Assembly: GCF_024171955.1 (NCBI RefSeq)
Contig: NZ_JAMTCS010000011.1
Coordinates: 186,001 to 250,000 of the forward strand
Length of the DNA: 64,000 nucleotides
Reading direction: 5' to 3'
Source of the DNA: Promicromonospora thailandica
GTDB lineage: Bacteria > Actinomycetota > Actinomycetes > Actinomycetales > Cellulomonadaceae
The notes under the pieces were generated by a model. It was not told the origin of the DNA, did no database searches, and was given only the letters and a program-made list of their open reading frames with translations. The position numbers and the translations under genes are program-made. This document shows positions 2,704 through 62,547 of the stretch, piece after piece. Each line of letters starts with the position of its first letter. The stretch's first letter is position 1.

Positions 2704-2820
2704 CGGTCAGTTGCCCGGTGTCGGGACTCGACGTCGGTCACTTGCCTTGAGATCGGTCGATCAGAGGACCGATCTCAAGGCAAGGGACCGACGTCGATCC
2801 GCTTTGCGGGCAAGCGACCG
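2704..2820. repeat. Family A compound palindrome (3'-end element)
   Basis: Begins 15 nt after the ferredoxin stop, between convergent genes. Inner arms 2730-2758 and 2767-2795 (29 bp, one mismatch, 8-nt loop) centre on AGATCGGTC/GACCGATCT. Outer arms 2704-2717 and 2807-2820 (14 bp, two mismatches) repeat the word CGGTCnnTTGCCCG. A degenerate relative lies at 46956-47020. Probably a bidirectional terminator or another 3'-end structure; function is inferred. Confidence 0.8.
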
Positions 2821-2823
2821 ACG

Positions 2824-3123
2824 TCAGGTCGTGCCCGGGCGTCGTACCGGCCGCGGGGGGACCGGCTTGGCGGCCTGGATCTCGGCGGCCGGGACGGTGA
2901 CGTCAGCGGGGTCACCGCGTCCGGGCACCGGGTCGGTCCGCAGCCGCAGGCCGGCGTCGGACACCTCGGTCACGAAGCCGATCACGTCGGTCCAGCGGTG
3001 CGCCGTAGCGCCGTCGGACACCACGGGGCCGTCCGGCGCGAGCCGACGGCGCACGACCACCCGCGTGCCCGGGCGGAGGGCGCGCCAGGCGCCGGGTTCG
3101 GCGGGTGGTGTAGCGAATGTCAC
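2824..3123 (-). CDS. Small SH3-like protein (Rv0428c N-terminal domain type)
   Basis: 99 residues. The body (LRPGTRVVVRRRL, then DVIGFVTEV, then VTVPAAEIQAAKPVPPRP) resembles the SH3-like beta-barrel found at the N-terminus of actinobacterial Rv0428c-type GNAT acetyltransferases, here without the acetyltransferase domain. The GTG start at 3123 is preceded by a purine-rich GGAAAGAGA. It is divergent from fdxA and they share a 137-bp intergenic region; it is convergent with the upstream ferredoxin gene. Function unknown: the family match is recognised from sequence character, not from a search. A short stand-alone gene of this type is often seen beside actinobacterial fdxA. Confidence 0.65.
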   Translation of the reverse strand: MTFATPPAEPGAWRALRPGTRVVVRRRLAPDGPVVSDGATAHRWTDVIGFVTEVSDAGLRLRTDPVPGRGDPADVTVPAAEIQAAKPVPPRPVRRPGTT

Positions 3124-3182
3124 GTCGGTTCTCTTTCCGCTGCGTGAGACCGGTCGGGATCTGCGGCTCTCCCGGGAGATAC

Positions 3183-3188
3183 TAGGAT
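3183..3188 (+). promoter_or_regulatory. -10 box of the fdxA-dapC promoter
   Basis: TAGGAT (extended ATACTAGGAT) in the divergent gap, 72 nt before the fdxA GTG. No convincing -35. Good match to actinobacterial SigA -10 elements. Confidence 0.45.
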
Positions 3189-3260
3189 CGCGCGGCAGGG
3201 CCCTGTGCGGCCCGCGCCGTGCCTGCCCCCCCAGTCCGGAAGTGGAAGGACACCCTCGAA

Positions 3261-3578
3261 GTGACCTACGTGATCGCTCAGCCGTGCGTCGACGTCAAGG
3301 ACCGGGCGTGCATCGAGGAGTGTCCCGTGGACTGCATCTACGAGGGCAACCGCTCCCTCTACATCCACCCGGACGAGTGCGTCGACTGCGGCGCGTGCGA
3401 GCCGGTCTGCCCGGTCGAGGCCATCTACTACGAGGACGACGTCCCCGACGAGTGGAAGGACTACTACCGCGCGAACGTCGAGTTCTTCGACGACCTGGGC
3501 TCGCCCGGCGGCGCCGCGAAGATGGGCGTCATCGAGAAGGACGACCCGATGATCGCGGCCCTTCCGCCCCAGGCCTGA
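3261..3578 (+). CDS. fdxA: 7Fe ferredoxin
   Basis: 105-residue bacterial-type ferredoxin with one [3Fe-4S] and one [4Fe-4S] cluster. The first ligand set is C9-x7-C17-x3-C21-Pro, plus CPVDC; the second is [12 protein letters not shown]. The acidic C-terminal half ([20 protein letters not shown]) is typical of actinobacterial FdxA/FdxC of about 106 residues. GTG 3261 is chosen because GGAAGGA lies 10 nt upstream and the protein then starts directly at the conserved TYVIAQPC; longer readings add an unconserved proline-rich stretch. The stop is 1 nt from dapC, so the two are co-transcribed, as in Mycobacterium tuberculosis (Rv1177-Rv1178). Confidence 0.96.
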
Positions 3579-3579
3579 C

Positions 3580-4692
3580 GTGGGTCTGCACGACCTCTCC
3601 GACCTGCCCTACCCCTGGGACTCGATCGCCGGCATCACGGCGACCGCGAGGGCCCACCCGGGCGGTCTGATCGATCTCTCCATGGGTACGCCCGTGGACC
3701 CGACGCCCGAGGTCGTGCGGCAGGCCCTGGAGGCGGCCTCGGACGCCCCGGGCTACCCCATGACGGCGGGCACGCCCGCCCTGCGCCAGGCGGTGGCCGC
3801 CTGGTTCGCCCGACGCCGCGGCGTGCCGGACCTCGACCCCGCGGCCGTGCTGCCGACGATCGGCTCGAAGGAGCTCGTCGGGCTGCTGCCCTCCCTGCTG
3901 CACCTGGGCCTCGGAGACGTGGTGGTGCACCCGTCCGTCGCCTACCCGACGTACGTGGCCGGTGCCCGCGCGGCCGGCGCGACGCCGCTCGCCACCGACG
4001 ACGTCGCCGACTGGGCGGGCCGCGACGACGTCCGCATGGTGTGGGTCAACTCACCCGGCAACCCGACGGGCCGGGTGCTCGACGTCGCGGACCTGCGCGC
4101 CGTGGTGGAGGCCGCCCGCGCGATCGGCGCCGTGGTGGTCTCCGACGAGTGCTACGCGGAGCTGGCGTGGGAGGTGCCGGGGGGCGACGTGCCCTCCGTG
4201 CTGGACCCCCGGGTGAGCGGCGGCTCGCACGAGAACCTGCTCGTGGCGTACTCGCTGTCGAAGCAGTCGAGCCTCGCGGGCTACCGGGCGGCGTTCCTGG
4301 CGGGGGACCCGGCACTGATCGCGGACCTCACGCAGACCCGCAAGCACCTCGGCCTCATCGTGCCGGCCCCGGTGCAGGCGGCGATGACGGCCGCGCTGTC
4401 GGACGACGAGCACGTGGCGGTGATCCGTGCCACGTACGGCGCGCGGCGCGGGGCGCTGGCCGCCGCCGTCCGCGAGGCCGGCTTCGTGGTAGACGGGTCG
4501 GAGGCCGGCCTGTACCTGTGGGTGGCCGCCCCGGACGGCCGATCCGGCCGCCAGGTCGCACAATGGTTCGCGGAGCGCGGCGTCCTCACCGCGCCCGGCC
4601 ACCTGTACGGCGACGACCGGCACACGCGCGTGGCGCTGACCTCGTCTGACGGTCAGATTGCCGATGCTGTGTCGCGCCTCACAGTTGCTTGA
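3580..4692 (+). CDS. dapC: N-succinyldiaminopimelate aminotransferase
   Basis: PLP-dependent class I/II aminotransferase, 370 residues, converting N-succinyl-2-amino-6-ketopimelate to N-succinyl-LL-DAP in the lysine/peptidoglycan pathway. Visible family features: PGYPMTAGTPALRQA near residue 60, the NSPGNPTG motif, SDECYAELAW, and SLSKQS with the PLP lysine at residue 228. The GTG start at 3580 is 1 nt after fdxA; its ribosome site would lie inside the fdxA 3' end and is weak, suggesting translational coupling. The fdxA-dapC pairing makes DapC more likely than another aspartate-type aminotransferase. Confidence 0.93.
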   Translation: MGLHDLSDLPYPWDSIAGITATARAHPGGLIDLSMGTPVDPTPEVVRQALEAASDAPGYPMTAGTPALRQAVAAWFARRRGVPDLDPAAVLPTIGSKELVGLLPSLLHLGLGDVVVHPSVAYPTYVAGARAAGATPLATDDVADWAGRDDVRMVWVNSPGNPTGRVLDVADLRAVVEAARAIGAVVVSDECYAELAWEVPGGDVPSVLDPRVSGGSHENLLVAYSLSKQSSLAGYRAAFLAGDPALIADLTQTRKHLGLIVPAPVQAAMTAALSDDEHVAVIRATYGARRGALAAAVREAGFVVDGSEAGLYLWVAAPDGRSGRQVAQWFAERGVLTAPGHLYGDDRHTRVALTSSDGQIADAVSRLTVA

Positions 4693-4700
4693 CCGACGGA

Positions 4701-4729
4701 TTGGAAAAACTAGAGCTGGGCGCGATACT
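4701..4729 (+). promoter_or_regulatory. SigA-type promoter of gltA
   Basis: TTGGAA (4701-4706), exactly 17 bp, then GATACT (4724-4729). Transcription would start near 4736, giving a leader of about 70 nt before gltA. Confidence 0.65.
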
Positions 4730-4807
4730 GTCGTGCCCCAGGTCGACGCTGCCCCGTCAGCTTTCTTTCGCCGCAGCGTCCCTCGTGCGCCCTCCAGGAA
4801 GGAAGAC

Positions 4808-6115
4808 ATGACCTCCACACCGGTGGACGGCTCGAGCCGCGTCGAGCTCGCCGTCGACGGAACCACCCACACCCTGCCTGTCGTCGCCGCGAGCGAGGGC
4901 AACGACGGCATCGTGGTGTCGTCCCTGCTCAAGGACACGGGCCTGGTCACGGTCGATCCGGGCTTCATGAACACGGCGTCGTGCGAGTCGTCGATCACCT
5001 ACATCGACGGCGACGCCGGCATCCTGCGCTACCGCGGGTACCCCATCGACCAGCTGGCCTCGGGCTCGACCTTCCTCGAGGTGGCCTACCTCCTCATCTA
5101 CGGCGAGCTGCCGAACGCGGCCGAGCTGGACTCCTTCACCGAGCGCGTGAACCGGCACACGCTGGTCCACGAGGACTTCCGCACGTTCATGGGCACGTTC
5201 CCGCGCAACGCCCACCCGATGGCGGTGCTCGCCTCGGCGGTGAACGCGCTGTCCACGTTCTACCCGGAGTCGCTCGACCCGGCGGACGACGAGCAGGTCG
5301 ACCTGGCCACCGTGCTGCTGCTCGCCAAGACCCGCACCATCACGTCCTACCTGCACCGGCGCCGCGTGGGCGAGCCGCTGCTGTACCCGGACTACTCGCG
5401 CGGCTACGTCGACGACTTCCTGCGCATGACGTTCGCGACGCCGTACGAGGCCTACGAGGCCGACCCGGTGGTCGTGGACGCGCTGGAGAAGCTGCTGGTG
5501 CTGCACGCCGACCACGAGCAGAACTGCTCCACCTCGACGGTTCGCGTGGTCGGCTCCTCGAACGCGACGCTGTACGCGTCGGTGGCCGCGGGCGTCAACG
5601 CCCTGTCGGGTCCCGCGCACGGCGGCGCCAACGAGGCCGTGCTGACCATGCTGGAGAAGATCCGCTCGGGCGGCGAGACCGTCGAGACCTTCATGAACAA
5701 GGTCAAGAACAAGCAGGACGGCGTGCGTCTGATGGGCTTCGGGCACCGGGTGTACAAGTCCTACGACCCGCGCGCCGCCATCGTGAAGAAGTCGGCCGAC
5801 GAGGTGCTCGACAAGCTGGGCGCCAAGGACGAGCTGCTCGACATCGCCCGCGGGCTCGAGGAGATCGCCCTCTCGGACGACTACTTCGTGGAGCGCAAGC
5901 TCTACCCGAACGTCGACTTCTACACGGGCCTCATCTACAAGGCCATGGGCTTCGAGCCGGCCATGTTCACGCCCCTGTTCGCGCTGGGCCGCATGCCCGG
6001 CTGGATCGCCCAGTGGCGCGAGATGATCAAGGACCCGCAGACCAAGATCGGCCGTCCGCGCCAGGTCTACACGGGCGCCACGGAGCGCCCGTACGTCCCG
6101 GTCGCCTCGCGCTGA
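4808..6115 (+). CDS. gltA: Citrate synthase (type II)
   Basis: 435 residues; condenses oxaloacetate and acetyl-CoA in the TCA cycle. Visible active-site motifs: HADHEQNCSTSTVR (H233, H236), GPAHGGANE (H271), MGFGHRVY (H313) and NVDFY (D370). The N-terminal beta-rich stretch before residue 60 (SYDPGFMNTASC-like) is the type II/hexameric form. ATG 4808 follows a strong AGGAAGGA; a longer in-frame reading from 4658 crosses the promoter and is rejected. Its own promoter lies just after dapC. A perfect 25-bp hairpin (family B) starts 14 nt past the stop. Confidence 0.97.
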   Translation: MTSTPVDGSSRVELAVDGTTHTLPVVAASEGNDGIVVSSLLKDTGLVTVDPGFMNTASCESSITYIDGDAGILRYRGYPIDQLASGSTFLEVAYLLIYGELPNAAELDSFTERVNRHTLVHEDFRTFMGTFPRNAHPMAVLASAVNALSTFYPESLDPADDEQVDLATVLLLAKTRTITSYLHRRRVGEPLLYPDYSRGYVDDFLRMTFATPYEAYEADPVVVDALEKLLVLHADHEQNCSTSTVRVVGSSNATLYASVAAGVNALSGPAHGGANEAVLTMLEKIRSGGETVETFMNKVKNKQDGVRLMGFGHRVYKSYDPRAAIVKKSADEVLDKLGAKDELLDIARGLEEIALSDDYFVERKLYPNVDFYTGLIYKAMGFEPAMFTPLFALGRMPGWIAQWREMIKDPQTKIGRPRQVYTGATERPYVPVASR

Positions 6116-6128
6116 CCGGGCACGCTCC

Positions 6129-6182
6129 GAGAACGACCTGAGGTACCGGATCCACCCGGATCCGGTACCTCAGGTCGTTCTC
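6129..6182. repeat. Family B palindrome after gltA
   Basis: Perfect inverted repeat with 25-bp arms (6129-6153 and 6158-6182) and loop ACCC. It begins GAGAACGACCTG and the arm centre holds GGTACCG. The same element, with the same loop, recurs after ligA at 59238-59287. Starts 14 nt after the gltA stop. Likely a transcription terminator for gltA, but longer and more conserved than needed for that. Confidence 0.9.
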
Positions 6183-6273
6183 GACGTCCGCTCTGGCGCG
6201 GCGTGATGCGATCGTTGCCTCGGGCGGTGCCTGTTTCGTCGTCCGTGTCACATACGGCGGCTACCTTGACCCC

Positions 6274-9200: not shown

Positions 9201-9534
9201 CCGCGGCGAGGTCGCCGTGCTGCGTGCCGTCGGGCTCGGCCCGGTCGCGCAGGGTCGGGCCCGGGCCGCCGAGCTGGTCGCCGTCGGCCTCGTGGCGCTC
9301 GCCGTGGGCGCCGTCGCGGGGTGGGCCGTGGCCCGCTTCACCGCGGGCGGGCTGGCAGCCGCGACGCTCACGGGCGTGGACGCCGCGCCGCCCGCGCGCT
9401 TCGTCCTGGAGGCGACCGGGACCGGGCTGGTGCTGGCGGCGGCCGTGGCCGGGCTCGTGCTCGTCGCGACCGGGGTGGGCGCGCGCGTGGCCGCGCAGGC
9501 CCGCGACACCACCTACCGCGAGGAGGTCCGCTGA
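6274..9534 (+). CDS. FtsX-type ABC transporter permease, large (1086 aa)
   Basis: Membrane subunit of a MacB/LolCDE-like (type VII) ABC system. Visible order: cytosolic RR-rich start and TM1 (about 14-38), large extracytoplasmic domain (about 40-290), an FtsX membrane block with three TMs (about 296-420), two further TMs (about 425-540), a second extracytoplasmic domain (about 545-935), then a final FtsX block (about 945-1080) containing the LRERRGEVAVLRAVGL coupling-helix motif. GTG 6274 is chosen because TACCTT ends exactly 6 nt upstream (leaderless promoter pattern) and TM1 follows. Overlaps the next permease gene by one base. The substrate is unknown; it could be a peptide or lipid exporter, or an immunity-type permease. 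Confidence 0.85.
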   Translation: MSRVTLLARRSTAHRGLLALVWLLVAVLTGALGVTVGWTQVAATAGTRDGLTSAEPAERAVQLATRVADGADAEQQDARVRQALAGLLEGVPHRVTYDLRTEPRYTRGADGEDLGRWSLAVLPAGSRAEALAGGGAEGVTLADGAWPAAADEAAVQADAAQAAGLGVGDTLRVSVDPDAPGTTGAVVTVTATWRVTDPDDAVWLGDPTALTGTDGSSPGPVVVSQDVLDVLDTDPFARWTVVPDVAALTPAHLPALAALAGEVERMLGEDADVAPRGLTVAGSLSDTAADLAEALRAGDAVALVPLCLLALVGLVALVQVARLLAATREGEVALLVSRGAAPGTVTAAAAVEGALLAVTAAAAGAAGAWAALGLVVRAEAGAAVAPLSPVAVALAVAVAATTTLVLVAALQAHAAVRRQVTDRSGRVRQVAALGTVVLTVAAAVVSAAQLLRYGSPLVTTPGGTSTDPAAAAAPALVLAALAVLAMAVLGPATRLWAGLAGRARGVVGPLAARQVARRIVVYVVPVVLLVLAGGAASLAGGYAGTAERLRADVDVLAVGTDVRVTAPEAGRLDPAPYLPGSGGPGDDAVAAAPALAATAYADGLPVTLLALPAASVPQVVRAPSRVLGLGVLAEDLATDAFAAAPALPDAPAEVTLALSGTIRPTTDVMPWPGASEHEIDASLLLATADGTLAQVPFGQLTEGDGTGDTLGAERTTHELSGQVPPPPAGQEWRVAALDLDTRPGWAPAEIELTVDGLTAGGQELDGAAWTLSETLDGPAGLELGADAPAGTAELTMSFPGGATGASRLRLLSTPDTDPVPLLASTSLTGELGVAPGDTFELTLGGTHLPVEAVASAGTVPGALDPYAALLDRGALAAVLVREVSDPVLTSEVWLAAGPPGAAADTATTARLAQEVAATAEADATTSRERPGVATPGSGTADAAVPVRVSFWLAAAGATVLALAGVLAVAVATLRERRGEVAVLRAVGLGPVAQGRARAAELVAVGLVALAVGAVAGWAVARFTAGGLAAATLTGVDAAPPARFVLEATGTGLVLAAAVAGLVLVATGVGARVAAQARDTTYREEVR

Positions 9535-12365: not shown

Positions 12366-12383
12366 ACCGAGGAGGCACACGCG

Positions 12384-20075: not shown

Positions 20076-20122
20076 CTGTGATCACTTCCGGTTCGCCGGA
20101 GTGACCAATCACGCCAGGTGAC

Positions 20123-23861: not shown

Positions 23862-23958
23862 CGAAGTAGAACCAGGGCGAAGTAGAACTGCAGCGAAGTA
23901 GAACGGCAGCACATCCGTGGGATGTGCTGCCGTTCTACTTCGCTGCAGTTCTACTTCG
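23862..23958. repeat. Family C iterated palindrome after the peptide transporter
   Basis: Five copies of the 11-bp word CGAAGTAGAAC in exact 16-bp register: forward at 23862, 23878 and 23894; inverted at 23932 and 23948. The last two forward copies and both inverted ones form perfect 39-bp arms (23878-23916 and 23920-23958) with a 3-nt GTG loop. The first forward copy is unpaired. The 5-bp spacers differ (CAGGG, TGCAG, GGCAG). A second member with the same 16-bp period is at 62439-62547. Strongest hairpin in the window; probable terminator of the operon, but the iteron-like build is unexplained. Confidence 0.92.
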
Positions 23959-26052: not shown

Positions 26053-26111
26053 CTGAGTGCTGGACATCCGCCCATGAACGGCCGTTCCGAGGGCGGACGT
26101 CCAGCACTCAG
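26053..26111. repeat. Family D palindrome after typA
   Basis: Arms 26053-26073 and 26091-26111 (21 bp, one mismatch), starting CTGAGTGCTGGA. The 17-nt loop contains its own palindrome GAACGGCCGTTC. Same word and same 17-nt loop length as the element at 44332-44394. It overlaps an ATG (26074) that would otherwise be read as the mshB start. Confidence 0.88.
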
Positions 26112-28509: not shown

Positions 28510-31500
28510 ATGGGTGAGCCGACCGAGCGTGACGAACCGCTCGAGCCGACGTCAGACGAGAACGCCGGGACGAGACCCGCCCCGACGACCCCTCCCCGCC
28601 TCTCCCGGACGCGTCCCAGCGGCGTGCCGCCGCAGGTGGTCCGTCCCCCAGCACGTCCTGCCGGCCCGGATGCGGCGCAGTCCGCAGCTCAGGCCGGTCG
28701 TCCGAACGCTCAGCAGGCTTCCCGACCCCCAGAGAAGGCTCAGCCCGTGACACCTCCGGAGCAGTCCGGGGCCCCGAGGGCCCCGCACCAGCCCGCCCCG
28801 CCGTCGATCCGGCCGGCCAAGCCCGCGCGCGCCCAGGCCGAGCGGCCGGACGGCGCCTCGCCCGCCGCCTCGCCGAACGAGCCCGCCGCGACCCCGACGA
28901 CGCCGGCCGCCCCCGTACGGCCCGCTGTCGCCTCGAAGCGGCCCGGTGGGGATGCGCCGACGGCGGTCCCCGGCCGGTCCGCCGCGTCGGCGGCGTCCGC
29001 GGACGAGCCGCCGAGCACGCCGAGCCAGACCGGTCCCGACCCGGTGGCCGTGCTGCAGACCGTGGTGAACGAGCTCGCGACGCCCGCGGCGAAGGCCGCG
29101 CCGCCGAAGAACGGCTACACGCCGCGCGTCTTCGCGTTCGAGCGCCCGCCCAAGATGGCGGACGGCGGAACGCCGGGTGCTGCTGAGTCGGGTGGGCCTG
29201 GGTCCGGCGCGACCGGTGCCGGTGCGCCGGGTGCCGGTGCGTCCGGCGCTGGTGTGTCCGGTGGTGCGGCGTCCGGTGAGAAGGGCGCCGCGTCCGCTGG
29301 TGCGGGCGCGAGTGCTGCCGCCGCCGGTGCCGCCGTGGCGGGCGCCGCCGCGTCCTCGGCCACGCCGAACGCCCCGAGCCCGGCCGCCGGAACGCCGGCT
29401 GCCCAGGGCCCGGCTGCCCAGAGTCCGGCTGCCCAGGATTTGGCTGCGGAGAAGCCGGCTGCCGCGGCACCCGCCCCCGTGAGCCCGGCCGCCGAGAAGG
29501 CCGGCGCCGGGAGCACGGATGCCGAGAAGGTCGGCGCCGAGTCGACCACTGCCGAGAACACCGGCGGCGAGAACACGGGCGCGGGAAACCCGGCCGCGAA
29601 CCTGCCCGGCCAGAACCCTGCTGCCCAGCCCCCTGCTGCCCAGAACCCCGCCGCTCGGCCCCCCGCCGAGCAGGCTCCCGCTGCGCAGACCCCCGCCGCA
29701 CCGGCTCCCGCCGACCGGAAGCCCGCTGCGCCGGCGAGCGCGTCGACGTCCGCTGCCGCGGTGCCGGCCGACCAGCAGTCCGCGCAGAAGGGCGCCGCCC
29801 CGGCGTCGGGCGCCGAGCCGGCCGGTGATGCTCCCGCCGACGCGCCCTCTCCCGTGAAGCAGCCGGCGTCGGCCGCCGGTGCGGCCGCGGCGGGTATCGC
29901 CGCCGCGTCGGCTGCGTCCCCGTCCGCCCCCGCGCCGGGTGCCGCGACCCAGCCCGCGGGTTCGACCCCGCCCGGGCCGCGGAACCCTGCCGCCGGTTCG
30001 ACCCCGCCCGGGCCGGGGAACCCTGCCGCCGGGCCGACCCCGCCCGAGCCCGTCGCGGGGCGGACGCCGACCGCACCGCAGGCTCCCACCGGACAGGTTC
30101 CACCGACCCCGGCCGGGCAGGCTCCGCCGTCGGTCCCGCCGCGGTCGCTCATCCCGCCGACGGCCCCGGGCGCCGTCCCGCCGTCCGGCCCGGACGCCCC
30201 GGCCGAGGCGGGCGGCAGCTCGTTCCTGAAGCCGCTGACCGGCGCGATCCAGCGCGTCTCGCGCTGGGCGCCGGTGAACCCGGGCGCCGCTCCGGCGGCG
30301 TCGGCGCAGGGACCCGCCGGTCCCGGTGGCCCCGCGGGTGGTCCGGACGGTCCCGGTGCGCCGGACGCCGGTTTCTACGGCCTCGCCGGTGACGGCGCGC
30401 CGAGCCGCGGTCCCAAGATCGCGCTGTTCGCCGTGCTGGCCGTCGTCGTGCTGTTCGGCGCCTACGCGCTGACGGCGTGGGGCCTGAGCGACCGGGTGCC
30501 GCGCGAGACCACGGTGGCGGGCGTCGACGTCGGCGGCATGAGCCGGGCCGAGGCGGCCTCCGCCCTGACGGAGCAGCTCGGTCCGCGCGTCACGGAGCCG
30601 ATCGCGCTCACCGCGGGCGAGGGCAAGGCACAGCTCTCCCCGGAGCCGAGCGGTCTCGCGGTCGACGCCGAAGGCACGGCCGCCGAGCTCACCGGGTTCT
30701 CGCTGAGCCCGGTGCGGATGTGGGCGCACATGTTCGGCGGTTCCGACGAGGAGCTGCTGCTGGACATCGACACCGAGAAGTTCGACGCCGCGGTGGCGGG
30801 CCTCGAGGAGTCGCTGGCCGTCGAGCCGGTGGACGGGACCGTCTCGTTCGTCGACGGTCAGCCGGCCAAGACGGACGCCAAGGACGGGTCGCGGATCGTC
30901 GCGAGCGAGACGTCGCGCATCATCACGGAGCGCTGGCTGCGCTCCGAGGGCCCGTTCGACCTGCCGGTCGAGACCGTCGAGCCGGCGGTCACGCAGCAGG
31001 AGACGGACGAGAGCTTCGCCGTGGCGCAGAAGGTGGTCTCGGGCCCGGTCACCGTGGCGGTGGGCGGCCAGAACCCGGTGCTCACGCCCGACGTGCTGGC
31101 CGGCCTGGTCCGGTTCGAGCAGCGGGAGGGCGCGCTGGTCACGATCGTGGACCGCAAGGCGGCCGTGGCGGCGATCGTGGACGGCACCACCAACCTGCTG
31201 GAGGTGCCGGACGACGCGCACTTCGAGTTCGTGGGCGGCAAGCCGACGGTCGTCGAGGGCAAGACCGGTACCACGCTGGACCCCGCGGAGACGGGCAAGG
31301 CCGTGCGGATCGCCGCGACGAGCGACGACCGCGAGACGTCGGTCGAGCTGGTCGAGCAGAGCCCGGAGGAGACCGTCGAGTCGCTGCAGGCGCTGGGCGT
31401 CAAGGAGGTCGTCTCCGAGTTCAGCACGCCGCTGACCAACGAGCCGGTCCGGACCCAGAACCTGGTGCGCGGGGCGCAGATGGTCACCGGCAACCTCATC

Positions 31501-44318: not shown

Positions 44319-44331
44319 CCCGACCGACACC

Positions 44332-44394
44332 CGCTGAGTGCGGGATCTTCGCCCCTCCGGCACCCGGAGAAGGGCGAAGATCCCGCACTCAGCG
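44332..44394. repeat. Family D palindrome after the PhoX-like gene
   Basis: Perfect 23-bp arms (44332-44354 and 44372-44394), starting CGCTGAGTGCGGGATC. The 17-nt loop contains a further stem CTCCGG/CCGGAG, so the structure is nearly continuous. Same word and same loop length as 26053-26111 after typA. Lies 56 nt before the cysteine desulfurase start. Confidence 0.9.
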
Positions 44395-46906: not shown

Positions 46907-46955
46907 GCGCGCGCTGGCCCCGCTGGTTCGGTCCTATGATCGAGCCCCCTTGTCG

Positions 46956-47020
46956 ACCTCGGTCAGATGCACTGAGATCGGTCGTTCGATGGACCGATCT
47001 GGGTGCCGGCGACCGATCTC
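46956..47020. repeat. Family A element (degenerate) after mnmA
   Basis: Core stem AGATCGGTC/GACCGATCT (46975-46983 and 46992-47000) with an 8-nt loop, same as the core at 2750-2775. The upstream arm (about 46957-46984) matches the family A left arm at about 22 of 27 positions. A third word GACCGATCTC sits at 47011-47020. Outer pairing has decayed. Lies between mnmA and the MetE-like gene. Confidence 0.7.
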
Positions 47021-47091
47021 GTGGCCCGATGTGCCGCAAGGGACCGAAACCGAACGTGGCTGGACGAGGACGCTGGACGAGGAGAGACCAC

Positions 47092-48129: not shown

Positions 48130-48138
48130 CCCCGCCGG

Positions 48139-50298
48139 TCAGGCGCCCGACAGGCGGTTCCAGAGGAACGTCCAGTGGGTGGCCGCCATGTACGCCGCCT
48201 GGGCGTTGTCCGCCGCGCCGCCGTGACCGCCCTCGATGTTCTCGTAGTACGTCACGTCCTTGCCCGCGGCCAGCATGAGCGCCGCCATCTTGCGGGCGTG
48301 GCCCGGGTGCACGCGGTCGTCCTTGGTCGACGTCGTGAACAGCACCGGCGGGTAGTCGCGCGCGGCGTCGAACAGGTGGTACGGCGAGAAGCCGCGCATG
48401 AACTCCCAGTCGGCCGTGTCCGGGTCGCCGTACTCCGCCATCCAGGACGCGCCGGCGAGCAGGTGCGAGTACCGCTTCATGTCCAGCAGCGGCACGCCCA
48501 CGATCACCGCGCCGAACAGCTCCGGATACTGCGTGAGCATGTTGCCTGCCAGGAGGCCGCCGTTGGAGCGGCCCTCCATGCCGAGCCGCTCCGGCGTCGT
48601 CACGCCCGTGGCCACCAGGTCGCGGGCGACCGCCGCGAAGTCCTCGTACGCGCGGTGCCGGTGCTCCTTGAGCGCCGCCTGGTGCCAGGCCGGCCCGTAC
48701 TCGCCGCCGCCGCGGATGTTCGCCACGGCGTACACGCCGCCGCGGTCCAGCCACGCGCGCCCGATCGTGCCCGAGTAGCCGGGCAGGATCGCCTGCTCGA
48801 ACCCGCCGTAGCCCCACAGCAGGGTGGGCGCGGGACCGGCGTCGCCGGAGACGAGGTCCGCGCGGCCCACGACGAAGTACGGCACCCGGGTGCCGTCGTC
48901 CGACTCCGTGAACCGCTGGCGCACCTCGAGCCCGGCCGTGTCGAAGTAGGCGGGTGCCGACTTCAGCACCTCGGGCACCTGCGCCGCGCCCACGGTGGTG
49001 CGGCTCAGCGTCGACGGCGTCAGGTATCCCGTGGTGACCACCCAGACGTCGTCCGAGTCCACGACGTCGACCGCGCCGACGCCCACCGTGAGCAGCTCGC
49101 CGCCCAGCGGCAGGTCGCCGCGCACCCAGGCGGCGCCCGCCGTCGACCCGTCCGTCGGCGGGGTGAGCACGTGCAGCAGGTTCTTCACGTCGTCCAGCAC
49201 GTTGAGCACCAGGTGGTGGCGGGTCCAGGTGGTGCCGGCCAGCGACGTCGTCGGCGTGGGCTCGAAGAGCACGGTGAGGTCGCGTGCGCCCGCCAGGAAC
49301 GCGTCGAACCCGGTGGCCAGCAGGGACCCGGCCCGGTAGGTCGTGCCGCCGACGGTCCAGTCGTCGCGCAGCTGCACCAGCATCCACTCGCGGTGCAGGC
49401 CGATGTTCGCCGAGTCGGGCACGTCGATCTTCGTGAGGGTCTGCTCGGGCGTGCCGACGCCGGTGGCGAGGTACGTCTCGCTCGCGTAGAACCGCAGCGC
49501 ACGGCGCACGAGGTCGCGCTCGAAGCCCGGCGTGTGCGAGCGGGAGGCGCTGACGGCCATGTCCTGCTCGGTGCCCTCGTAGACCAGGGTCGCCTCGGCG
49601 AGCGGCGTGCCACGCCGCCACAGCCTGACCTGTCGCGGGTAGCCCGACGGCGTCATGGTGCCCGGGCCGAAGTCGGTGGACGCGTAGACCGTGTCCTGGT
49701 CGACCCACGACAGGCCGCCCTTGGCCTGCTCGCGCACGAACCCGCCCTCGGACGCGGGCACGAACCGCTTCTCCACCAGGTCGAACTCGCGCGTCACGTC
49801 GGAGTCGGAGCCGCCGGGGGAGAGGTCGACCAGGGCGTGGCGCCGGGGCTCGCCCGCCGCGAGCTGCTCCGGTGTCGGGCGCAGGACGCTCGCGCCGTGC
49901 CACACCCAGCTCTCGCCCTCCTGCTCGGCCAGGGCGTCGAGGTCGAGGACGGTCTCCCACTCCGGGTCGGCGGTGCGGTAGGAGTCGAGGGTCGTGCGGC
50001 GCCACAGGCCGCGGCGGTGCGCGGCGTCCTGCCAGAAGTTGTAGTAGTGGTCGCCGACCTTCGAGACGTGCGGGATCTTGTCGTCCGAGTCGAGCACCTC
50101 GCGCACGGCCCGCTCGGTGTCGGTGAAGGCGGGCCCGCCGAGGACGGCCGCGCTGTGCGCGTTGCGCTCGCGCACCCAGTCGAGCGCGGCGTCGCCCTCG
50201 ACGTCCTCGAGCCAGGCGAACGGGTCGTCGGCGGTGGGGTCCAGGGGGGTCTCGGGAAGAGCGGTCCGGGGGGTGGTCTGGGTGTGCTCGACGCTCAT
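48139..50298 (-). CDS. Prolyl oligopeptidase family serine peptidase (S9A type)
   Basis: 719 residues, no signal peptide, cytosolic. N-terminal POP motif DDPFAWLEDVEGDAALDWV, a seven-bladed propeller, then the alpha/beta hydrolase domain: LLWGYGGFE, catalytic Ser near residue 575 in EGRSNGGLL, Asp in DDRVHPGHARK, His in IEGGHGG. ATG 50298 lies 7 nt after TAGGGT (50306-50311 on the minus strand), the leaderless pattern; upstream GTG is also possible. Divergent from the conservon with 292 bp between; convergent with the MetE-like gene. Confidence 0.92.
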   Translation of the reverse strand: MSVEHTQTTPRTALPETPLDPTADDPFAWLEDVEGDAALDWVRERNAHSAAVLGGPAFTDTERAVREVLDSDDKIPHVSKVGDHYYNFWQDAAHRRGLWRRTTLDSYRTADPEWETVLDLDALAEQEGESWVWHGASVLRPTPEQLAAGEPRRHALVDLSPGGSDSDVTREFDLVEKRFVPASEGGFVREQAKGGLSWVDQDTVYASTDFGPGTMTPSGYPRQVRLWRRGTPLAEATLVYEGTEQDMAVSASRSHTPGFERDLVRRALRFYASETYLATGVGTPEQTLTKIDVPDSANIGLHREWMLVQLRDDWTVGGTTYRAGSLLATGFDAFLAGARDLTVLFEPTPTTSLAGTTWTRHHLVLNVLDDVKNLLHVLTPPTDGSTAGAAWVRGDLPLGGELLTVGVGAVDVVDSDDVWVVTTGYLTPSTLSRTTVGAAQVPEVLKSAPAYFDTAGLEVRQRFTESDDGTRVPYFVVGRADLVSGDAGPAPTLLWGYGGFEQAILPGYSGTIGRAWLDRGGVYAVANIRGGGEYGPAWHQAALKEHRHRAYEDFAAVARDLVATGVTTPERLGMEGRSNGGLLAGNMLTQYPELFGAVIVGVPLLDMKRYSHLLAGASWMAEYGDPDTADWEFMRGFSPYHLFDAARDYPPVLFTTSTKDDRVHPGHARKMAALMLAAGKDVTYYENIEGGHGGAADNAQAAYMAATHWTFLWNRLSGA

Positions 50299-53145: not shown

Positions 53146-53737
53146 CCGCACCGCGTCCGGACAGCACCTGGCGCCGACCGTCGCACGGTCGGTCAAGGTG
53201 CTCGTCGTGGGTGCGTTCGGGGTGGGCAAGACGACGCTGATCGGCTCCGTCAGCGAGATCGAGCCGCTGCGCACCGAGGAGCGGATCACGACCGCGAGCG
53301 TCGGCATCGACCCGGGGCAGCCGAACAAGGACACGACGACGGTCGCGATGGACTTCGGTCGCATCACCGTGACCGAGGACATCGCCCTGTACATGTTCGG
53401 CACCCCGGGTCAGCGCCGGTTCTGGGACCTCTGGGCCGGCCTGGCGGACGGTGCCGTCGGCGCCCTCGTCATGATCGACACCCGGCACCTGGAGGACAGC
53501 TTCGAGGTGCTGGACCAGCTCGAGCTGCGGACCAAGATCCCGTTCGCGGTGGTCGTCAACCAGTTCCCGGACTCGCCCGCCTACCCGCTCGAGCGGGTGC
53601 GGGCGGCGCTGGACCTCCTGCCGGAGACGCCCATCGTGGAGTGCGACGCGCGCGACCGGCAGTCCGCCGTCCTGACGCTCATCACCCTCGTCGAGCACGC
53701 CATGACCTTCCCGGTCTTCCAGAAGGTCAACGCGTGA
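53126..53737 (+). CDS. cvnD: Conservon Ras-like GTPase CvnD
   Basis: 203 residues. P-loop GAFGVGKTT (29-37), FGTPGQRRFWDLWAGL as the G3 segment, NQFPDSPAY in place of NKxD, ECDARDRQS near the G5 position. This is the MglA/CvnD bacterial small-GTPase group (DUF in older annotation). ATG 53126 has GGAG 10 nt upstream, inside cvnC. Stop overlaps the P450 start (GTGA). Confidence 0.93.
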   Translation: MDSASSDRTASGQHLAPTVARSVKVLVVGAFGVGKTTLIGSVSEIEPLRTEERITTASVGIDPGQPNKDTTTVAMDFGRITVTEDIALYMFGTPGQRRFWDLWAGLADGAVGALVMIDTRHLEDSFEVLDQLELRTKIPFAVVVNQFPDSPAYPLERVRAALDLLPETPIVECDARDRQSAVLTLITLVEHAMTFPVFQKVNA

Positions 53738-54990
53738 CCTTGGCCAACCGGCTGCACCAGCGGCTGGAGGACATCCCCGACCGCATGCAGCTGGCGGACA
53801 TCACCTCGGCGCGGGACCCGCACAAGGTCTACGAGCGGCTGCGCGACGAGTGGGGCCCGGTGGCCCCGATGGACCTGGAGCCGGGCGTGCCGGCCTGGCT
53901 CGTGCTCGGCTACGACGAGGCCAGCAGCGTGATGCGCAACGAGCTGCTGTTCTCCCGCAACTCCCGCAACTGGCGGTACGTCCAGGAGCGGTCGCTGCCC
54001 GCCGACTCCGGGGTGTTCGCGACCCTGGCCCCGCGCGAGAACGCCTACTACCTCGACGGTATGCAGCAGCGCCGCCTGCGCGCCCCGCTCGACGACGCGC
54101 TGGGCGGTGTCGACGAGAAGCGGCTGGCCCGCACCGTCGCGGTGACGTGCGAGGCGATCATCGACCGCCTCCTGCCGCGCGGCGAGGCCGACCTGGTGCG
54201 CGACTACGCGGTCGCCGTCCCCGTGATGGTCATGACCGAGCTGTTCGGCATGAGCCTGTCCGACGGGAACAAGATGCACGAGCTCTCGGAGGCCCTCTAC
54301 GAGGGCACCGACCGGGCGCGGGCGGCCGCCGTCGAGCAGGAGGCGCTGCTGGCGGTGCTCGTGGCGACGCACCGGGCCGAGCCGGGCGAGGACCTCACGA
54401 CGGCCCTGGTGAACCACCCCAACCACGCGAACGACGTCGAGGTGATGGCCTCGATCGGCGTGATGTTCACGCTGGGGCACGACGCCGAGATCGCGTGGAT
54501 CGCCAGCACGCTGCACATGATCCTGACCGACCCCGCGTTCGCCGCGCGCGTGCGCCGTGGGCGGCTCGACCTCGACGACGCCCTGGACGAGGTGTCGCGG
54601 CGCAACCCGCCGGCCCCGCACGTGCTGCCGCGGTTCGCGCGGCAGGACTGCGAGCTGGGCGGGCGCCGGATCGCCTTCGGGGACGCCCTCGTCCCCGCCG
54701 TCGCCGCGGCCAACGCCGACCGGGCCATCCGCACCGACGACCCCTGGGAGGAGCTGGGCAGCCGGTTCCACCTGACGTGGGGCGCGGGTGCGCACGCCTG
54801 CCCAGCGCACCGGATCGGGCCGCTCATCGGCCGCATCGCGGTGGAGACCCTGCTGCGCCGGATCCTCGACATGGAGCTGCGGGTACCGGCCGAGGCGCTG
54901 ACGATGTCGCGCTCGCCCTGGTCGCGCCACCCGCGCACGCTCCCGGTGCGGTTCACGAGCCCGGAGACGGCCCCACCGCCGGAGCGCTGA
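53734..54990 (+). CDS. Conservon cytochrome P450
   Basis: 418 residues, translationally coupled to cvnD. Heme thiolate Cys356 in LTWGAGAHACPAHRIG: the usual Phe of FxxGxxxCxG is replaced and the residue after Cys is Pro, as in other conservon P450s. K-helix has DEVSRRNPP, so E286-x-x-R289 is kept, unlike Streptomyces CYP157 conservon P450s that carry EQSLW. The I-helix reads LGHDAEIAW, lacking the normal acid-Thr oxygen-activation pair. Probably a conservon (CYP157-like) enzyme or a heme sensor. Substrate unknown. Followed by a family E palindrome. Confidence 0.9.
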   Translation: MTLANRLHQRLEDIPDRMQLADITSARDPHKVYERLRDEWGPVAPMDLEPGVPAWLVLGYDEASSVMRNELLFSRNSRNWRYVQERSLPADSGVFATLAPRENAYYLDGMQQRRLRAPLDDALGGVDEKRLARTVAVTCEAIIDRLLPRGEADLVRDYAVAVPVMVMTELFGMSLSDGNKMHELSEALYEGTDRARAAAVEQEALLAVLVATHRAEPGEDLTTALVNHPNHANDVEVMASIGVMFTLGHDAEIAWIASTLHMILTDPAFAARVRRGRLDLDDALDEVSRRNPPAPHVLPRFARQDCELGGRRIAFGDALVPAVAAANADRAIRTDDPWEELGSRFHLTWGAGAHACPAHRIGPLIGRIAVETLLRRILDMELRVPAEALTMSRSPWSRHPRTLPVRFTSPETAPPPER

Positions 54991-55010
54991 CGGGCCCGCC
55001 CGCCCGTGCT

Positions 55011-59221
<4,211 letters not shown>

Positions 59222-59237
59222 CACCGGCTCGCTTCCC

Positions 59238-59287
59238 GAACGACCTGGGGTGCCGAGACCACCCGGTCTCGGTACCCCAGGTCGTTC
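59238..59287. repeat. Family B palindrome after ligA
   Basis: 23-bp arms (59238-59260 and 59265-59287), one mismatch (59252), loop ACCC, starting GAACGACCTGGGGT. Same word, same GGTACCG-type centre and identical loop as 6129-6182 after gltA, 53 kb away. Likely ligA terminator or more general 3'-end element. Confidence 0.9.
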
Positions 59288-59327
59288 TCGGCTGAAGGCC
59301 CGCCCGCGTAACGGTGAAGAGGTAGCA

Positions 59328-59353
59328 ACTTTTGCTTGACGCGCGACAAAAGT
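59328..59353 (+). promoter_or_regulatory. ROK operator 1
   Basis: ACTTTTGC-N10-ACAAAAGT, an inverted repeat with one mismatch, overlapping the -35. Same sequence pattern as 63778-63803, which lies next to a ROK repressor gene. Probable repressor-binding site. Confidence 0.8.
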
Positions 59354-59364
59354 CCCCTTAGGTT
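59336..59364 (+). promoter_or_regulatory. SigA promoter of the DUF1080-protein gene
   Basis: TTGACG (59336-59341), 17 bp, TAGGTT (59359-59364). Transcription start near 59371. The -35 lies inside operator 1. Confidence 0.75.
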
Positions 59365-59399
59365 CTAGCCGCAAGGTCAATGCCGACCGAGGAGACCTC

Positions 59400-62300
59400 A
59401 TGCGTCAACGTGGAACCACCATCCGCACGAGACAGGCGGCCGCTGGTGCGACCGCCGTCGCGCTGACAGCGGTGATGCTGTCCGGCGCCGTCCCCGCCGC
59501 GACCGCGGCGGACGACCTGCCGCCGCAGGAGCCAGGCGTCACGCTGCGGAGCTACGACATGGCCCGCGACCTCAGCGAGCTGTGCACGCTCCGCTCGGGT
59601 CAGACGCCCAACGTCGACCAGCTCAAGCCGACCATCGACTACTCGTCGGAGGGCGACTTCGGCCTGAGCGAGCGCTTCATCGCGCACGCGCTCGCCAACC
59701 TGTCGGTGCCGTCCGCCGGCAACTACGAGTTCCGGCTCACCAGCGACGACGGCTCGCGCCTGGTCATCGACGACACCGAGGTGATCGACAACGACGGCCT
59801 GCACGGCGCCGAGTCGAAGGAAGGCACCATCGCGCTGGAGCCGGGCTACCACGACCTGCGCGTCGAGTTCTTCGACAACACCAACGACAACGTCCTGAAG
59901 CTGGAGTGGCGCCCGCCGGGCAGCACCGACTACGTCGTCGTGCCGGAGAGCGTGCTGAGCACCGAGGCCGGCGTCGTGCGCGTGACCGCGCCCGGCACCA
60001 AGTACTGCGAGGGCTCGGACGAGACCGCGGGCGACGGCATGCGCCTGGACTCGGTGTACCCGGGCTACACCCTCACCGACCTGCGCCCCGACGGCTTCGA
60101 GCCGATGGTCGCCGCGCTCGACTGGACCGACGACGACCGTCTCGCCGTGGTGACGTCCGGCTCCGTGAGCCCGGGCGGCTGGGTCGAGGACCCGGAGCCC
60201 GGCGAGGTCTTCCTGCTGGACAACGTGACCGGCGAGACCTCGAAGGACCAGGTGACCTACGAGAAGGTCGCCACGGACCTGTTCAACCCGATGGGCATCG
60301 CCGTCATCGGCGACTCGATCTACGTCTCGGAGCGGGACAAGCTCACCGAGCTCACGGACCCCGACGGCGACGGCTTCTACGACGACCACCGCACGGTGGC
60401 CGAGTGGCCCTTCGGCGGCAACTTCCACGAGTTCGCCTTCGGCCTGCTGCACGACCGCAAGTACTTCTACCTGAACCTGTCGGTGGCCATCAACAACGGC
60501 GGCGCCACCACGGACCCGCAGCCCGCCGAGAACCGCGGTACGGCCATCCGCGTCGACCGTCGCACCGGCGAGGTCGAGTACGTGGCCGGCGGCCTGCGCA
60601 CGCCCAACGGCCTGGTCAAGGGCCCGGACGGCGAGATGTTCGTGATGGACAACCAGGGCGCCTGGCTGCCGAGCTCGAAGCTCGTGCACATCGAGCAGGG
60701 CAAGTTCTTCAACCACTTCACCAACCCGTCGGGCCCGTACGACGCCACGCCCGTCTCGGCGCCGGCGCTGTGGGTGCCGCAGAACGAGATCGGCAACTCG
60801 CCGAGCTCGCCGGTGCTGCTCGAGGAAGGCCCGTACGAGGACCAGCTCGTCTTCGGCGACGTGACCTACGGCGGTCTGCAGCGCGCCTTCCTGGAGAAGG
60901 TCGACGGCGAGTACCAGGGTGCGGTGTTCCGGCACTCGGCGGGCCTGGAGGCCGGTGTGAACCGCACCATCGTGGGCCCCGACGGCGCGCTGTACGTGGG
61001 CGGCATCGGCGAGGGCGGCAACTGGAGCGAGCCGGGCAAGCTGCGCTACGGCCTGCAGAAGCTGACGCCGAACGGCGAGGACGCCTTCGACATGACCGAG
61101 ATGCGGGTCACGAAGAAGGGCTTCGAGGTCGAGTACACGCAGCCGCTGTCCACCGAGACGGTCGCCAAGATCGCCGAGGACCCGAACGCGGCGTTCCGCA
61201 TGGACCACTGGCGCTACGTGCCCACGCGCGCCTACGGCGGCCCGAAGATCGACGAGCAGCAGCTCTTCGTCTCGGACGCCAAGGTGTCCCGGGACCGCAC
61301 CAGGGTGACGCTCACCGTGGACGGGCGCCAGCCCGGCTACGTGGTGCACCTGCGCAGCCCGCGCCCGTTCGCGGACAGCGAGGGTCGGGAGCTGTGGAAC
61401 ACCGAGGCGTGGTACACCCTCAACGCGATCCCCGGGTACAAGGCCCCGGCCGGCTTCCAGGAGGCCGAGGAGGCGACGCTCCGCGGCAGCGCGAACGTGG
61501 CGAACGAGCACAACGGCTACTCGGGCTCGGGCTTCGCGGCCGGCTTCACGAACCCGGGCGCGTCCGCGACCTTCACGACCACCGTCAAGCGCGGGGGCAG
61601 CCAGCCGGTGAGCCTGCGCTACTCCAACGGGCCCAACCCGTTCGAGGGCACCAAGACGGTGTCGGTGCTGGTCAACGGCCAGGAGGTCGAGCCGTGGGCG
61701 CTGGAGTCCACGGGTGACTGGAAGACGTGGGCGACGGCGACCCGGTCGCTCGACCTGCGCAAGGGAGTCAACACCATCACCGTGCGCTACGACGAGGACG
61801 ACGACGGCAACGTCAACCTCGACCTCCTCAAGGTCGGTGGCGGGGCCGACATCTGCGAGCCGAAGCGGTACGAACGGGGCTACACCGCGCTGTTCGACGG
61901 CACGCTGGCCTCGCTGGACGGCTGGAACATGGCCGGTCCGGGCTCGTTCGGCCGCCAGGCCGACTGCACGATCCGCGGGGCCGGTGGCATGGGTCTGCTC
62001 TGGCACTCCACGGAGCTGAACGAGTACAGCCTGAAGCTCGACTGGAAGCTCAAGAAGGACGACAACGGCGGTGTCTTCGTCGGCTTCCCGGACCCGGGCA
62101 ACGACCCGTGGATCGCCGTCGACCAGGGGTACGAAATCCAGATCGACGCCACTGACGAGCCGGACCGCACCACGGGCGCGATCTACACCTTCCAGGGAGC
62201 CGACCCTGAGGTCGTGGAGCGCGCGCTGAAGCCGGTGGGCTCCTGGAACTCCTACGAGATCCGGGTGGAGGGCCAGACGATCAAGGTCTTCCTCAACGGT

Positions 62301-62429
62301 GCGCTGGTGAACGACTTCGTCAGCACCGACCCCGCGCGTGACCTCAGCCAGGGCTTCATCGGGCTGCAGAACCATGGTCAGGGCGAGGCGGTGAGCTACC
62401 GCGACGTCCGGGTCAAGGACCTGAGCTGA
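59400..62429 (+). CDS. Secreted PA14 / sorbosone-dehydrogenase-like propeller / CBM / DUF1080 protein
   Basis: 1009 residues. Sec signal (cleavage near ATA|AD at about 36). PA14 domain (about 45-190: NYEFRLTSDDGSRLVIDD), six-bladed sorbosone/glucose-dehydrogenase-like propeller (about 215-560: NPMGIAVIGDSIYVSERD, NGLVKGPDGEMFVMDN). A CBM6/35-like domain follows (about 690-820: GYSGSGFAAGF, LDLRKGVNTITV), then DUF1080 (about 825-1009: GYTALFDG, WKLKKDDNGGVFVGF, DQGYEIQIDATD). DUF1080 enzymes include 3-keto-glycoside hydrolases; the reaction here is inference. RBS GGAG. Regulated with the ROK/ABC sugar cluster through operator 1. Followed by a family C palindrome. Confidence 0.88.
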   Translation: MRQRGTTIRTRQAAAGATAVALTAVMLSGAVPAATAADDLPPQEPGVTLRSYDMARDLSELCTLRSGQTPNVDQLKPTIDYSSEGDFGLSERFIAHALANLSVPSAGNYEFRLTSDDGSRLVIDDTEVIDNDGLHGAESKEGTIALEPGYHDLRVEFFDNTNDNVLKLEWRPPGSTDYVVVPESVLSTEAGVVRVTAPGTKYCEGSDETAGDGMRLDSVYPGYTLTDLRPDGFEPMVAALDWTDDDRLAVVTSGSVSPGGWVEDPEPGEVFLLDNVTGETSKDQVTYEKVATDLFNPMGIAVIGDSIYVSERDKLTELTDPDGDGFYDDHRTVAEWPFGGNFHEFAFGLLHDRKYFYLNLSVAINNGGATTDPQPAENRGTAIRVDRRTGEVEYVAGGLRTPNGLVKGPDGEMFVMDNQGAWLPSSKLVHIEQGKFFNHFTNPSGPYDATPVSAPALWVPQNEIGNSPSSPVLLEEGPYEDQLVFGDVTYGGLQRAFLEKVDGEYQGAVFRHSAGLEAGVNRTIVGPDGALYVGGIGEGGNWSEPGKLRYGLQKLTPNGEDAFDMTEMRVTKKGFEVEYTQPLSTETVAKIAEDPNAAFRMDHWRYVPTRAYGGPKIDEQQLFVSDAKVSRDRTRVTLTVDGRQPGYVVHLRSPRPFADSEGRELWNTEAWYTLNAIPGYKAPAGFQEAEEATLRGSANVANEHNGYSGSGFAAGFTNPGASATFTTTVKRGGSQPVSLRYSNGPNPFEGTKTVSVLVNGQEVEPWALESTGDWKTWATATRSLDLRKGVNTITVRYDEDDDGNVNLDLLKVGGGADICEPKRYERGYTALFDGTLASLDGWNMAGPGSFGRQADCTIRGAGGMGLLWHSTELNEYSLKLDWKLKKDDNGGVFVGFPDPGNDPWIAVDQGYEIQIDATDEPDRTTGAIYTFQGADPEVVERALKPVGSWNSYEIRVEGQTIKVFLNGALVNDFVSTDPARDLSQGFIGLQNHGQGEAVSYRDVRVKDLS

Positions 62430-62438
62430 CCGGCTCGC

Positions 62439-62547
62439 CGAAGTAGAACACCGGCGAGATAGAACCAGGGCGAGATAGAACTCTGGCGAGATAGAACCAC
62501 AGCGGTTCTATCTCGCCAGAGTTCTATCTCGCCCTGGTTCTACTTCG
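62439..62547. repeat. Family C iterated palindrome after the DUF1080-protein gene
   Basis: Seven words at an exact 16-bp period: forward at 62439 (CGAAGTAGAAC), 62455, 62471 and 62487 (CGAGATAGAAC); inverted at 62505, 62521 and 62537 (the last GTTCTACTTCG). Core perfect arms 62461-62498 and 62504-62541, loop 5 nt; the outermost words also pair exactly. Same word and period as 23862-23958. Between convergent genes; likely bidirectional 3'-end element. Confidence 0.92.

Follow-up and report, generated by a model that had tools for sequence, protein, structure and literature searches.

Long gene-end palindromes of Promicromonospora thailandica and the AbiEi-like, putative nuclease proteins whose genes they frame

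Introduction

Among described systems, the closest to the subject of this report, a set of long palindromes at gene ends in Promicromonospora thailandica and the proteins whose genes they frame, are the REPtrons. In these (PMC8049555, PMC3733652), families of repetitive extragenic palindromes (REPs) are dispersed between genes, a vertically kept gene is framed by its own repeats, and copies are more numerous where that gene is present; the protein is a HUH tyrosine transposase, known as the REP-associated tyrosine transposase (RAYT). The palindromes considered here lie in a 64,000-nt stretch (contig NZ_JAMTCS010000011.1, 186001-250000), which we call the window. It is part of contig C11 of a 5.38 Mb genome in 24 contigs and consists of high-GC actinobacterial DNA, whose TypA has its closest named relatives in Promicromonospora panici (96%) and P. 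umidemergens (94%).

Further systems come close in single respects. DNA uptake sequences, which form terminators in Neisseria and Haemophilus, occur as many single words, also within genes. A homing gene sits within its own site; I-Bth0305I is a Vsr-like (EDxHD) homing endonuclease. The link between uptake word and terminator is noted in PMC2267715. AbiEi, of the AbiE type IV toxin-antitoxin systems, has a winged helix, binds a pair of 23-bp inverted repeats separated by 3 bp, and regulates its own expression via inverted repeats (PMC3985639). Finally, the U-less (I-shaped) terminators of GC-rich bacteria consist of a strong hairpin past the stop codon with no U-tract, and structured transcript ends without U-tracts in Streptomyces clavuligerus were likened to them by the authors (PMC8269248).

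An earlier note on the window had located nine hairpins in five families, here called A (A1, A2), B (B1, B2), C (C1, C2), D (D1, D2) and E, and all nine were found where it had placed them. We propose, with a probability of roughly 0.6, that these are non-autonomous 3'-end palindromes, that at least families A, C and E (and P, J, L and CTGACTCG elsewhere in the genus) are each tied to one protein with an AbiEi-like and a putative nuclease part, and that the elements would be copied and then retained by the host. No prior description of this system was found in the open-licence literature searched.

Results and discussion

A palindrome frames the gene of its own partner protein

A C hairpin of the own genome (G000), at C1:167059-168408, is split into halves 1.25 kb apart that enclose one 348-aa gene, the C-group gene (G000:C1:167240-168286), with C words on both sides. 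Its orthologs in the congeners G009 and G008 are also framed by C-type words. The words beside the gene are CGAAGTAGAAC/CGAGATAGAAC in G000, CGAGGTAGAAC in G009 and CGAGGTAGTCA in G008; G008 departs from the usual word both next to the gene and across the genome, nearly all words among the matches listed there being CGAGGTAGTCA in the same architecture.

Homologs of the enclosed protein gave 29 matches, in all 13 genomes of the genus. Of the members in the own genome four are strong, belonging to the C, A, E and P groups, and two are weak. The weak ones, at C9:254249 (E 4e-6) and C5:52710 (E 9e-5), showed no matching palindromes and were set aside. In a maximum-likelihood tree the 29 homologs fall into seven groups, namely five supported clades, one single gene (P) and one group (J) joined at an unresolved fork. 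The supported clades C (3/3), E (3/3), A (7/7) and L (5/5, L234 being assigned by one word only) have one palindrome family each, and so have the J group (7/7, J words being accepted with up to 3 substitutions) and the single P gene. The S group, sister clade of C, has the hairpin word CTGACTCG in common in 3/3 at a relaxed score of 11, a scoring without control, and its member L226 has one such hairpin inside a C-terminal extension of the reading frame.

By one automated rule, hairpins of the same family stood on both sides of 15 of the 29 genus homologs and of none of 678 control genes, which were reading frames of 200-450 aa (Fisher 2e-23). Further control sets gave 0/118 and 0/216, and hairpins of any family were found on both sides of 18/29 homologs and 14/678 controls in the genus. 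By design the rule omits the three C-group genes, which are framed by half arrays; it also missed one A gene, L239, despite A palindromes on both sides. When words and weaker hairpins were included, in a looser count without matched control, 25 of the 29 were framed on both sides and four (L227, L234, L243 and L244) on one. Arms that are nearly perfect, 16-nt units in varying number and a nested palindrome (at the D2 site of G010) could also be produced if palindromes were made and kept perfect by template switching, in which one arm is copied from the other, with families arising by drift and the protein association as a by-product of hairpins being frequent near genes. Such an origin leaves the control genes, none of them framed by one family on both sides, and the agreement of protein group with palindrome family unaccounted for, and we consider it very unlikely.

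The place of the gene is conserved within each group, since every pair compared has at least one aligned flank (74-97% identity) and often both. In G000 the C gene and the E gene each stand between housekeeping genes that converge, the kind of place where hairpins typically occur. Three of the seven A-group species, G001, G004 and G012, have the gene in inverted orientation to its conserved flanks (L232, L233 and L237 versus L236 and L238-L240) with A palindromes on both sides, an arrangement that would be expected from recombination between the framing palindromes.

One partner-gene site falls within the window, at 48131..48428, as established by flank alignment. It has no strong hairpin here, and the S-group gene occupies it in G001 and G003; the S-group locus of G007 has the same flanks. 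In G001 and G003 the aligned flanks are 1.5-1.6 kb apart; in eight genomes that lack the gene the distance is about 300-410 nt, and six of the eight have a plain hairpin at this position. The S-group gene tree, joining G003 with G001 (L226, L227, L228), conflicts with the species tree, which hints at transfer into the same site.

Five of the window hairpins (A1, A2, C1, C2 and E) belong to partnered families. A1 shares 27 eight-mers (both strands counted) with the palindromes around the A-group partner gene of G000, and the E hairpin shares 20 with those of the E-group partner gene. The partner genes lie outside the window, for which reason the earlier note missed them. No homolog of the partner protein was found in viral contigs.

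C and E arrays are commonest in the genomes with their partner gene

C arrays number 462, 284 and 196 in the three carriers of the C gene and at most 116 in the ten other genomes. E arrays number 75, 50 and 9 in the three carriers of the E gene, followed by 6, 3 and then 0, so that the third carrier, G003 (9), leads the next genome (6) only narrowly. The AAC type made up 191/196 of the period-16 array pairs in G000, 93/116 in G005, 238/462 in G009, 7/94 in G004 and 0/284 in G008.

The C family is genus-bound. Two C words at the 16-nt step were found in 0/46 genomes outside the genus, and a looser C pattern, with 196 matches in G000 and from 0 to 462 within the genus, gave at most three per genome elsewhere in the order with one exception, a genome with 12 matches that are mostly a tandem repeat. 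A tandem repeat of CGAGGTGGCTACCGGA at G099:C1:52468-52651 has a 16-nt step like that of the C arrays, and its listed units all lie on one strand.

A genome-wide search with the C word, along the lines that the earlier note had proposed, gave 292 occurrences of CGARRTAGAAC in the own genome against 4 of the reversed pattern, and a C ten-mer was intergenic 40 times and genic once. Among 100 listed of the 292, words stand 2-6 to an arm at a 16-nt step, mostly inverted on the opposite arm, and two are solitary. Families are repeated at gene ends and enriched genome-wide, and the view of that note that repeated families rather than convergent evolution of GC hairpins lie behind the shared sequences is borne out. 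Short words in inverted pairs at 3' ends are likewise what DNA uptake sequences forming terminators by inverted pairing would look like. However, the words here are almost never single and nearly all intergenic, and many unrelated words, in many families, occur side by side in one genome; we find this explanation hardly credible.

The partner protein has an AbiEi-like part and a putative nuclease part

PADLOC AbiEi models matched all 24 members (best 1e-16; approximately residues 50-180 in the first member), and Pfam AbiEi_4 was found in 11/24 at E <=0.01, below the cut-off where bits were shown. In the C-terminal part the motif D..E.DG..K has D257, E268, G271 and K274 invariant among 24 sequences, and the invariant D..E.x..K is what we take to be a PD-(D/E)XK, restriction-type nuclease motif. 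Distant relatives of the same architecture align with the family over most of their length (hhalign 99.3%). From these similarities the protein would consist of an AbiEi-like DNA-binding part and a putative restriction-type nuclease part. A sequence search of solved structures returned nothing at E <0.1.

The N-terminal and middle parts resemble AbiEi, and the length and symmetry of the known AbiEi binding site resemble those of the hairpins. Unlike AbiE, the protein has an extra C-terminal domain with a nuclease-like motif, the framing words are dispersed genome-wide, and no AbiEii-type toxin was among seven neighbours scanned at four G000 loci. These neighbours were M13- and M1-type peptidases, an M24 peptidase, a RIO kinase, DNA polymerase A, a methyltransferase and one protein without a match. 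The C-group gene inside its own palindrome is placed like a homing gene in its site; in contrast to homing endonucleases there are hundreds of dispersed sites, and no intron or intein was seen.

The earlier note had suggested, among other things, REP-like elements needing a trans-acting protein, and that a RAYT be looked for. The first was the nearest guess, and for the second the outcome was negative: PF01797 was found in 0/13 Promicromonospora genomes, the same search being positive in 5/14 control genomes. In architecture the hairpins behave as REP/REPIN elements with a partner of their own would, but with the defining RAYT absent they are not REPs in that sense. The GTAG tetranucleotide that REPs have at one end of the palindrome was not seen, by eye on the listed arms, where the arms of A, E, J, L and P end; in C it is internal to the paired word, and many copies have ATAG there. 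Although the palindromes are dispersed between genes in families as REPs are, the gene framed by the repeats here codes for another protein, and movement of REP or REPIN elements by a RAYT has a practically negligible chance of being the explanation. Also unlike REPtrons are the arms of up to ~50 bp, the words at 16-21 nt steps, the location mainly at 3' gene ends and the actinobacterial host; the word 'actinobacteria' appears nowhere in the main text of PMC3733652.

Homologs occur in other genera of the order

At E <=1e-30 homologs are present in at least 118 of 297 genomes of the order and at least 49 of 95 genera, the own genome included; 118/297 is a lower bound because only the top candidates per genome were scored. 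Among 29 loci from other genera, one per genome, five (L258, L259, L260, L263 and L268) had hairpins of the same family on both sides, compared with 0/334 control genes, and L263 has CGAAGTAGAAC words at a 19-nt step.

A distant homolog in Schaalia canis (L110:3425-4693) has CGCGAGTGGTC palindromes on both sides, which says little because this palindrome is frequent in the locus. Within L110:1561-4967 such palindromes lie near 1561, 2232, 2833, 3259 and 4932, the one at 2833 being inside a reading frame (2278-3186, minus strand).

Hairpins form a large population at gene ends

Hairpins were scanned for at a score of at least 18 and loops of 3-20 nt in the window and in the first 400 kb of each of contigs C1 and C2, a sample of 864 kb out of 5.38 Mb that was not a random draw. 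Seven were found in the window (D1 and A2 score below 18) and 28 and 29 in the two 400-kb stretches, or 64 in total, and none in a 400-kb control from a 4th-order Markov model. The 64 form about ten families, which beyond A-E include F (TTCGAGACCGAGGTTGCTTCG), G (CGAACGTAGG), H (GTGTCAGACGCTCAGGTC) and I (CCCAGTCATC); five families at nine sites, as first described, was too narrow a scope. Long hairpins are not special to the genus Promicromonospora, since besides the 78 found in 1198 kb of congeners there were 7 in 348 kb from other genera within the family. A pair of F hairpins at G000:C1:100354-102168 (hairpins at 100354 and 102079, 1.6 kb apart, with 42-43 bp arms) was tried as the frame of a further partner and rejected, as by eye only a glyoxalase-like frame lies there.

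Between convergent genes 30/64 hairpins were found, compared with 104/483 background intergenic regions (p 4e-5). The median hairpin starts 13 nt past the stop codon among 75 stop assignments (only those at -15 to 70 nt from the stop, and one hairpin may count twice), in agreement with the earlier description of hairpins directly downstream of stop codons. Over the 15 nt downstream, T made up 11-23% per position, compared with an intergenic background of 13.9%, and T runs reached 3 nt at most (75 sense assignments); the T run that follows the stem of a canonical intrinsic terminator was not found in the sampled hairpins. The reported lack of a T-tract is correct for the own-genome sample; in several congeners the D1 site does end in TGCTTT(T), a T-rich tail. 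Nine of the 64 hairpins lie within called reading frames, some of which are miscalls (e.g. 59101-59349 over B2); genes were called by a GC-position script, and in the window six frames were removed as misplaced and two were added by hand.

The same gene ends keep a hairpin while its family changes

The window was compared gene by gene with syntenic stretches of 12 congeners, partially for G002, G007, G008 and G010. For gene ends that carry a hairpin in the window, one scoring at least 12 was found in 64/97 congener cells, compared with 29/261 other gene ends (p 5e-24); seven rows that repeat a site (convergent partners, or neighbours sharing one 3' region) were left out of this count. The hairpins are not static, and one gene end has different families in different species. 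The citrate synthase gene end (B1), with a hairpin in 10/11 congeners, is B-like in G001 and G005 (by eye) and of other families elsewhere, with five families across 11 species. At the B2 gene end a hairpin was found in 5/12 congeners. The C1 site has C words in G003, G005 and G009, TCA-type words in G004 and G008, an H-type hairpin in G006 and degenerate H-like ones in G007, G010 and G011. In G010 the D2 site has, by eye, D arms on the outside and a palindrome of a different kind between them. The D1 site, on the other hand, has the D word in all 12 congeners, and its arms covary, 257/273 arm cells being Watson-Crick paired as against a maximum of 252 in 1000 between-species arm shuffles. On a six-gene tree, parsimony gave 7 family changes for C1, 5 for C2, 3 for E, 6 for B1, 8 for D2 and 0 for D1, with labels assigned by hand and degenerate H-like counted as H.

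A hairpin kept while its sequence changes, sites after stop codons and an excess at convergent gene ends are all in line with U-less intrinsic terminators, which ordinary recombination would exchange; the AbiEi-like proteins would then be plain regulators with framing operators, as the autoregulation of known AbiEi might suggest, the dispersed copies would be bound either in regulation or by chance, and nothing would be mobilised. The structured ends of S. clavuligerus transcripts fit as well. But sequence families common to many sites and copy numbers that follow a gene would, by this reading alone, be left without explanation, and likewise the putative nuclease part and the palindromes on both sides of the partner genes. 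Arms of 20-50 bp, shared sequence families and partner proteins also set the hairpins apart from U-less terminators as known. We regard this alternative as unlikely, while giving it serious weight.

A possible mechanism, points against it and what it would mean

If the palindromes are copied and retained as we propose, the AbiEi-like part would bind the repeated word in the palindrome arms, and the nuclease part would cut or nick the palindromes, so that the element begins to be copied into further hairpins at gene ends. The host would keep such copies because, even with no U-tract, a long perfect hairpin could end or protect transcripts from either flanking gene or from both. By analogy we infer a REPtron-like system made from unrelated parts, an AbiEi-like protein with a putative restriction-type nuclease part standing where REPtrons have their transposase.

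Several observations weigh against this proposal. Binding, cutting, copying and termination are all steps that we infer. No family member had a Pfam nuclease match; two of three distant relatives scanned did match PF18741 REase_MTES_1575 (5e-6 and 8e-5), though below the family cut-off of 38.2 bits. A first structure model (mean pLDDT, the predicted local distance difference test score, of 36.6) was discarded, and the second, of a distant relative (mean pLDDT 65.7), is usable in part only; with it the first distinct Foldseek matches were AbiEi at E 0.035 and then, as the first nuclease, the catalytic domain of I-Bth0305I at E 0.6, and they are not significant. A long-branch warning applies to the root of the protein tree. 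The exact one-sided p of 0.0035 for each of the C and E copy-number rankings is optimistic because the compared species share ancestry, and C words remain in G004, G005, G006 and G011, which are without the C gene. Almost half of the array pairs of G009 differ from the AAC type beside its C gene. In the own genome no partner gene was found for B, D, F, G, H and I, and only about 20 of the 64 sampled hairpins are in partnered families, with about 34 in these six and about 10 in none (two D hairpins first labelled C, and two unlabelled B hairpins, were set right by eye); with over half of the hairpins lacking a partner, pairing is no general rule unless other proteins serve these families. Framing of the same family was absent at threshold from 24 of the 29 loci of other genera, which means that the association is recent, lost or restricted there. 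Finally, a hairpin was found in 0/11 congeners at the A1 site and in 1/8 at the A2 site.

We would give even odds to the broader view that Promicromonospora, and probably other Micrococcales, have a second, independently evolved REPIN-like system, in which AbiEi-nuclease fusions recognise, propagate and co-evolve with their own palindromes, whose copies take over transcription-end hairpins. Competing protein-palindrome pairs would then rewrite the terminator set of a genome, family by family. If this is true, the REP/RAYT system was not a single historical accident; at least twice, and from unrelated enzymes, dispersed palindromes came to have a dedicated protein that is vertically kept. It would also assign a function to AbiEi-like proteins, which form a large group, account for the turnover of gene-end hairpins in high-GC bacteria, and provide natural protein/word pairs whose specificity seems switched between congeners.

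The nine hairpins of the window and their surroundings

All nine hairpins were recorded on the plus strand. A1 (2704..2830, core 2728-2797) has 31-bp arms (97% complementary) and lies between a plus-strand frame ending at 2689 and a minus-strand frame at 2824-3123; the former is a 65-aa frame (2492-2689) that was matched in 11 congeners. A2, the degenerate member of the family (46954..47021), has 30-bp arms. B1 (6128..6183; 26-bp arms, 100%) starts 12 nt past the citrate synthase gene, and B2 (59238..59287; 23-bp arms, 96%) follows the gene for an NAD-dependent DNA ligase. C1 (23862..23970, core 23878-23958) has 39-bp arms (100%) with CGARRTAGAAC reiterated at 16 nt within both; its outer part begins at ~23862, with an ABC transporter gene upstream and typA downstream. 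C2 (62436..62551, core 62451-62551; 48-bp arms, 94%) lies between the convergent genes 59400-62429 (plus, a PA14/CBM protein) and 62564-63745 (minus, ROK). D1 (26053..26111; 21-bp arms, 95%) follows typA/bipA, and D2 (44332..44394; 26-bp arms, 96%) a PhoX phosphatase gene. The E hairpin (55011..55111, core 55028-55101) has 35-bp arms (94%), with GAGATCTGG reiterated in both, and is located between the convergent genes 53641-54990 (plus), which gave a weak P450 match only, and 55130-56641 (minus). The term 'very long', formerly applied to the palindromes, is weak for A2 because its arms are only 73% complementary. An Rfam scan of the window gave no match at gathering thresholds.

Downstream of typA, long hairpins are also present in Arthrobacter and relatives (L060, L069, L080, L085 and L095), with ACGACGGCGGCCG-type or ACGACGTCGGCCG arms, and may be another lineage-specific family. 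L086 holds an actinobacterial TypA (80% to that of the window) under a Sporosarcina title and is probably mislabelled or contaminated. Within the window itself, a tandem 15-bp repeat is found inside a long reading frame at 29356-29658.

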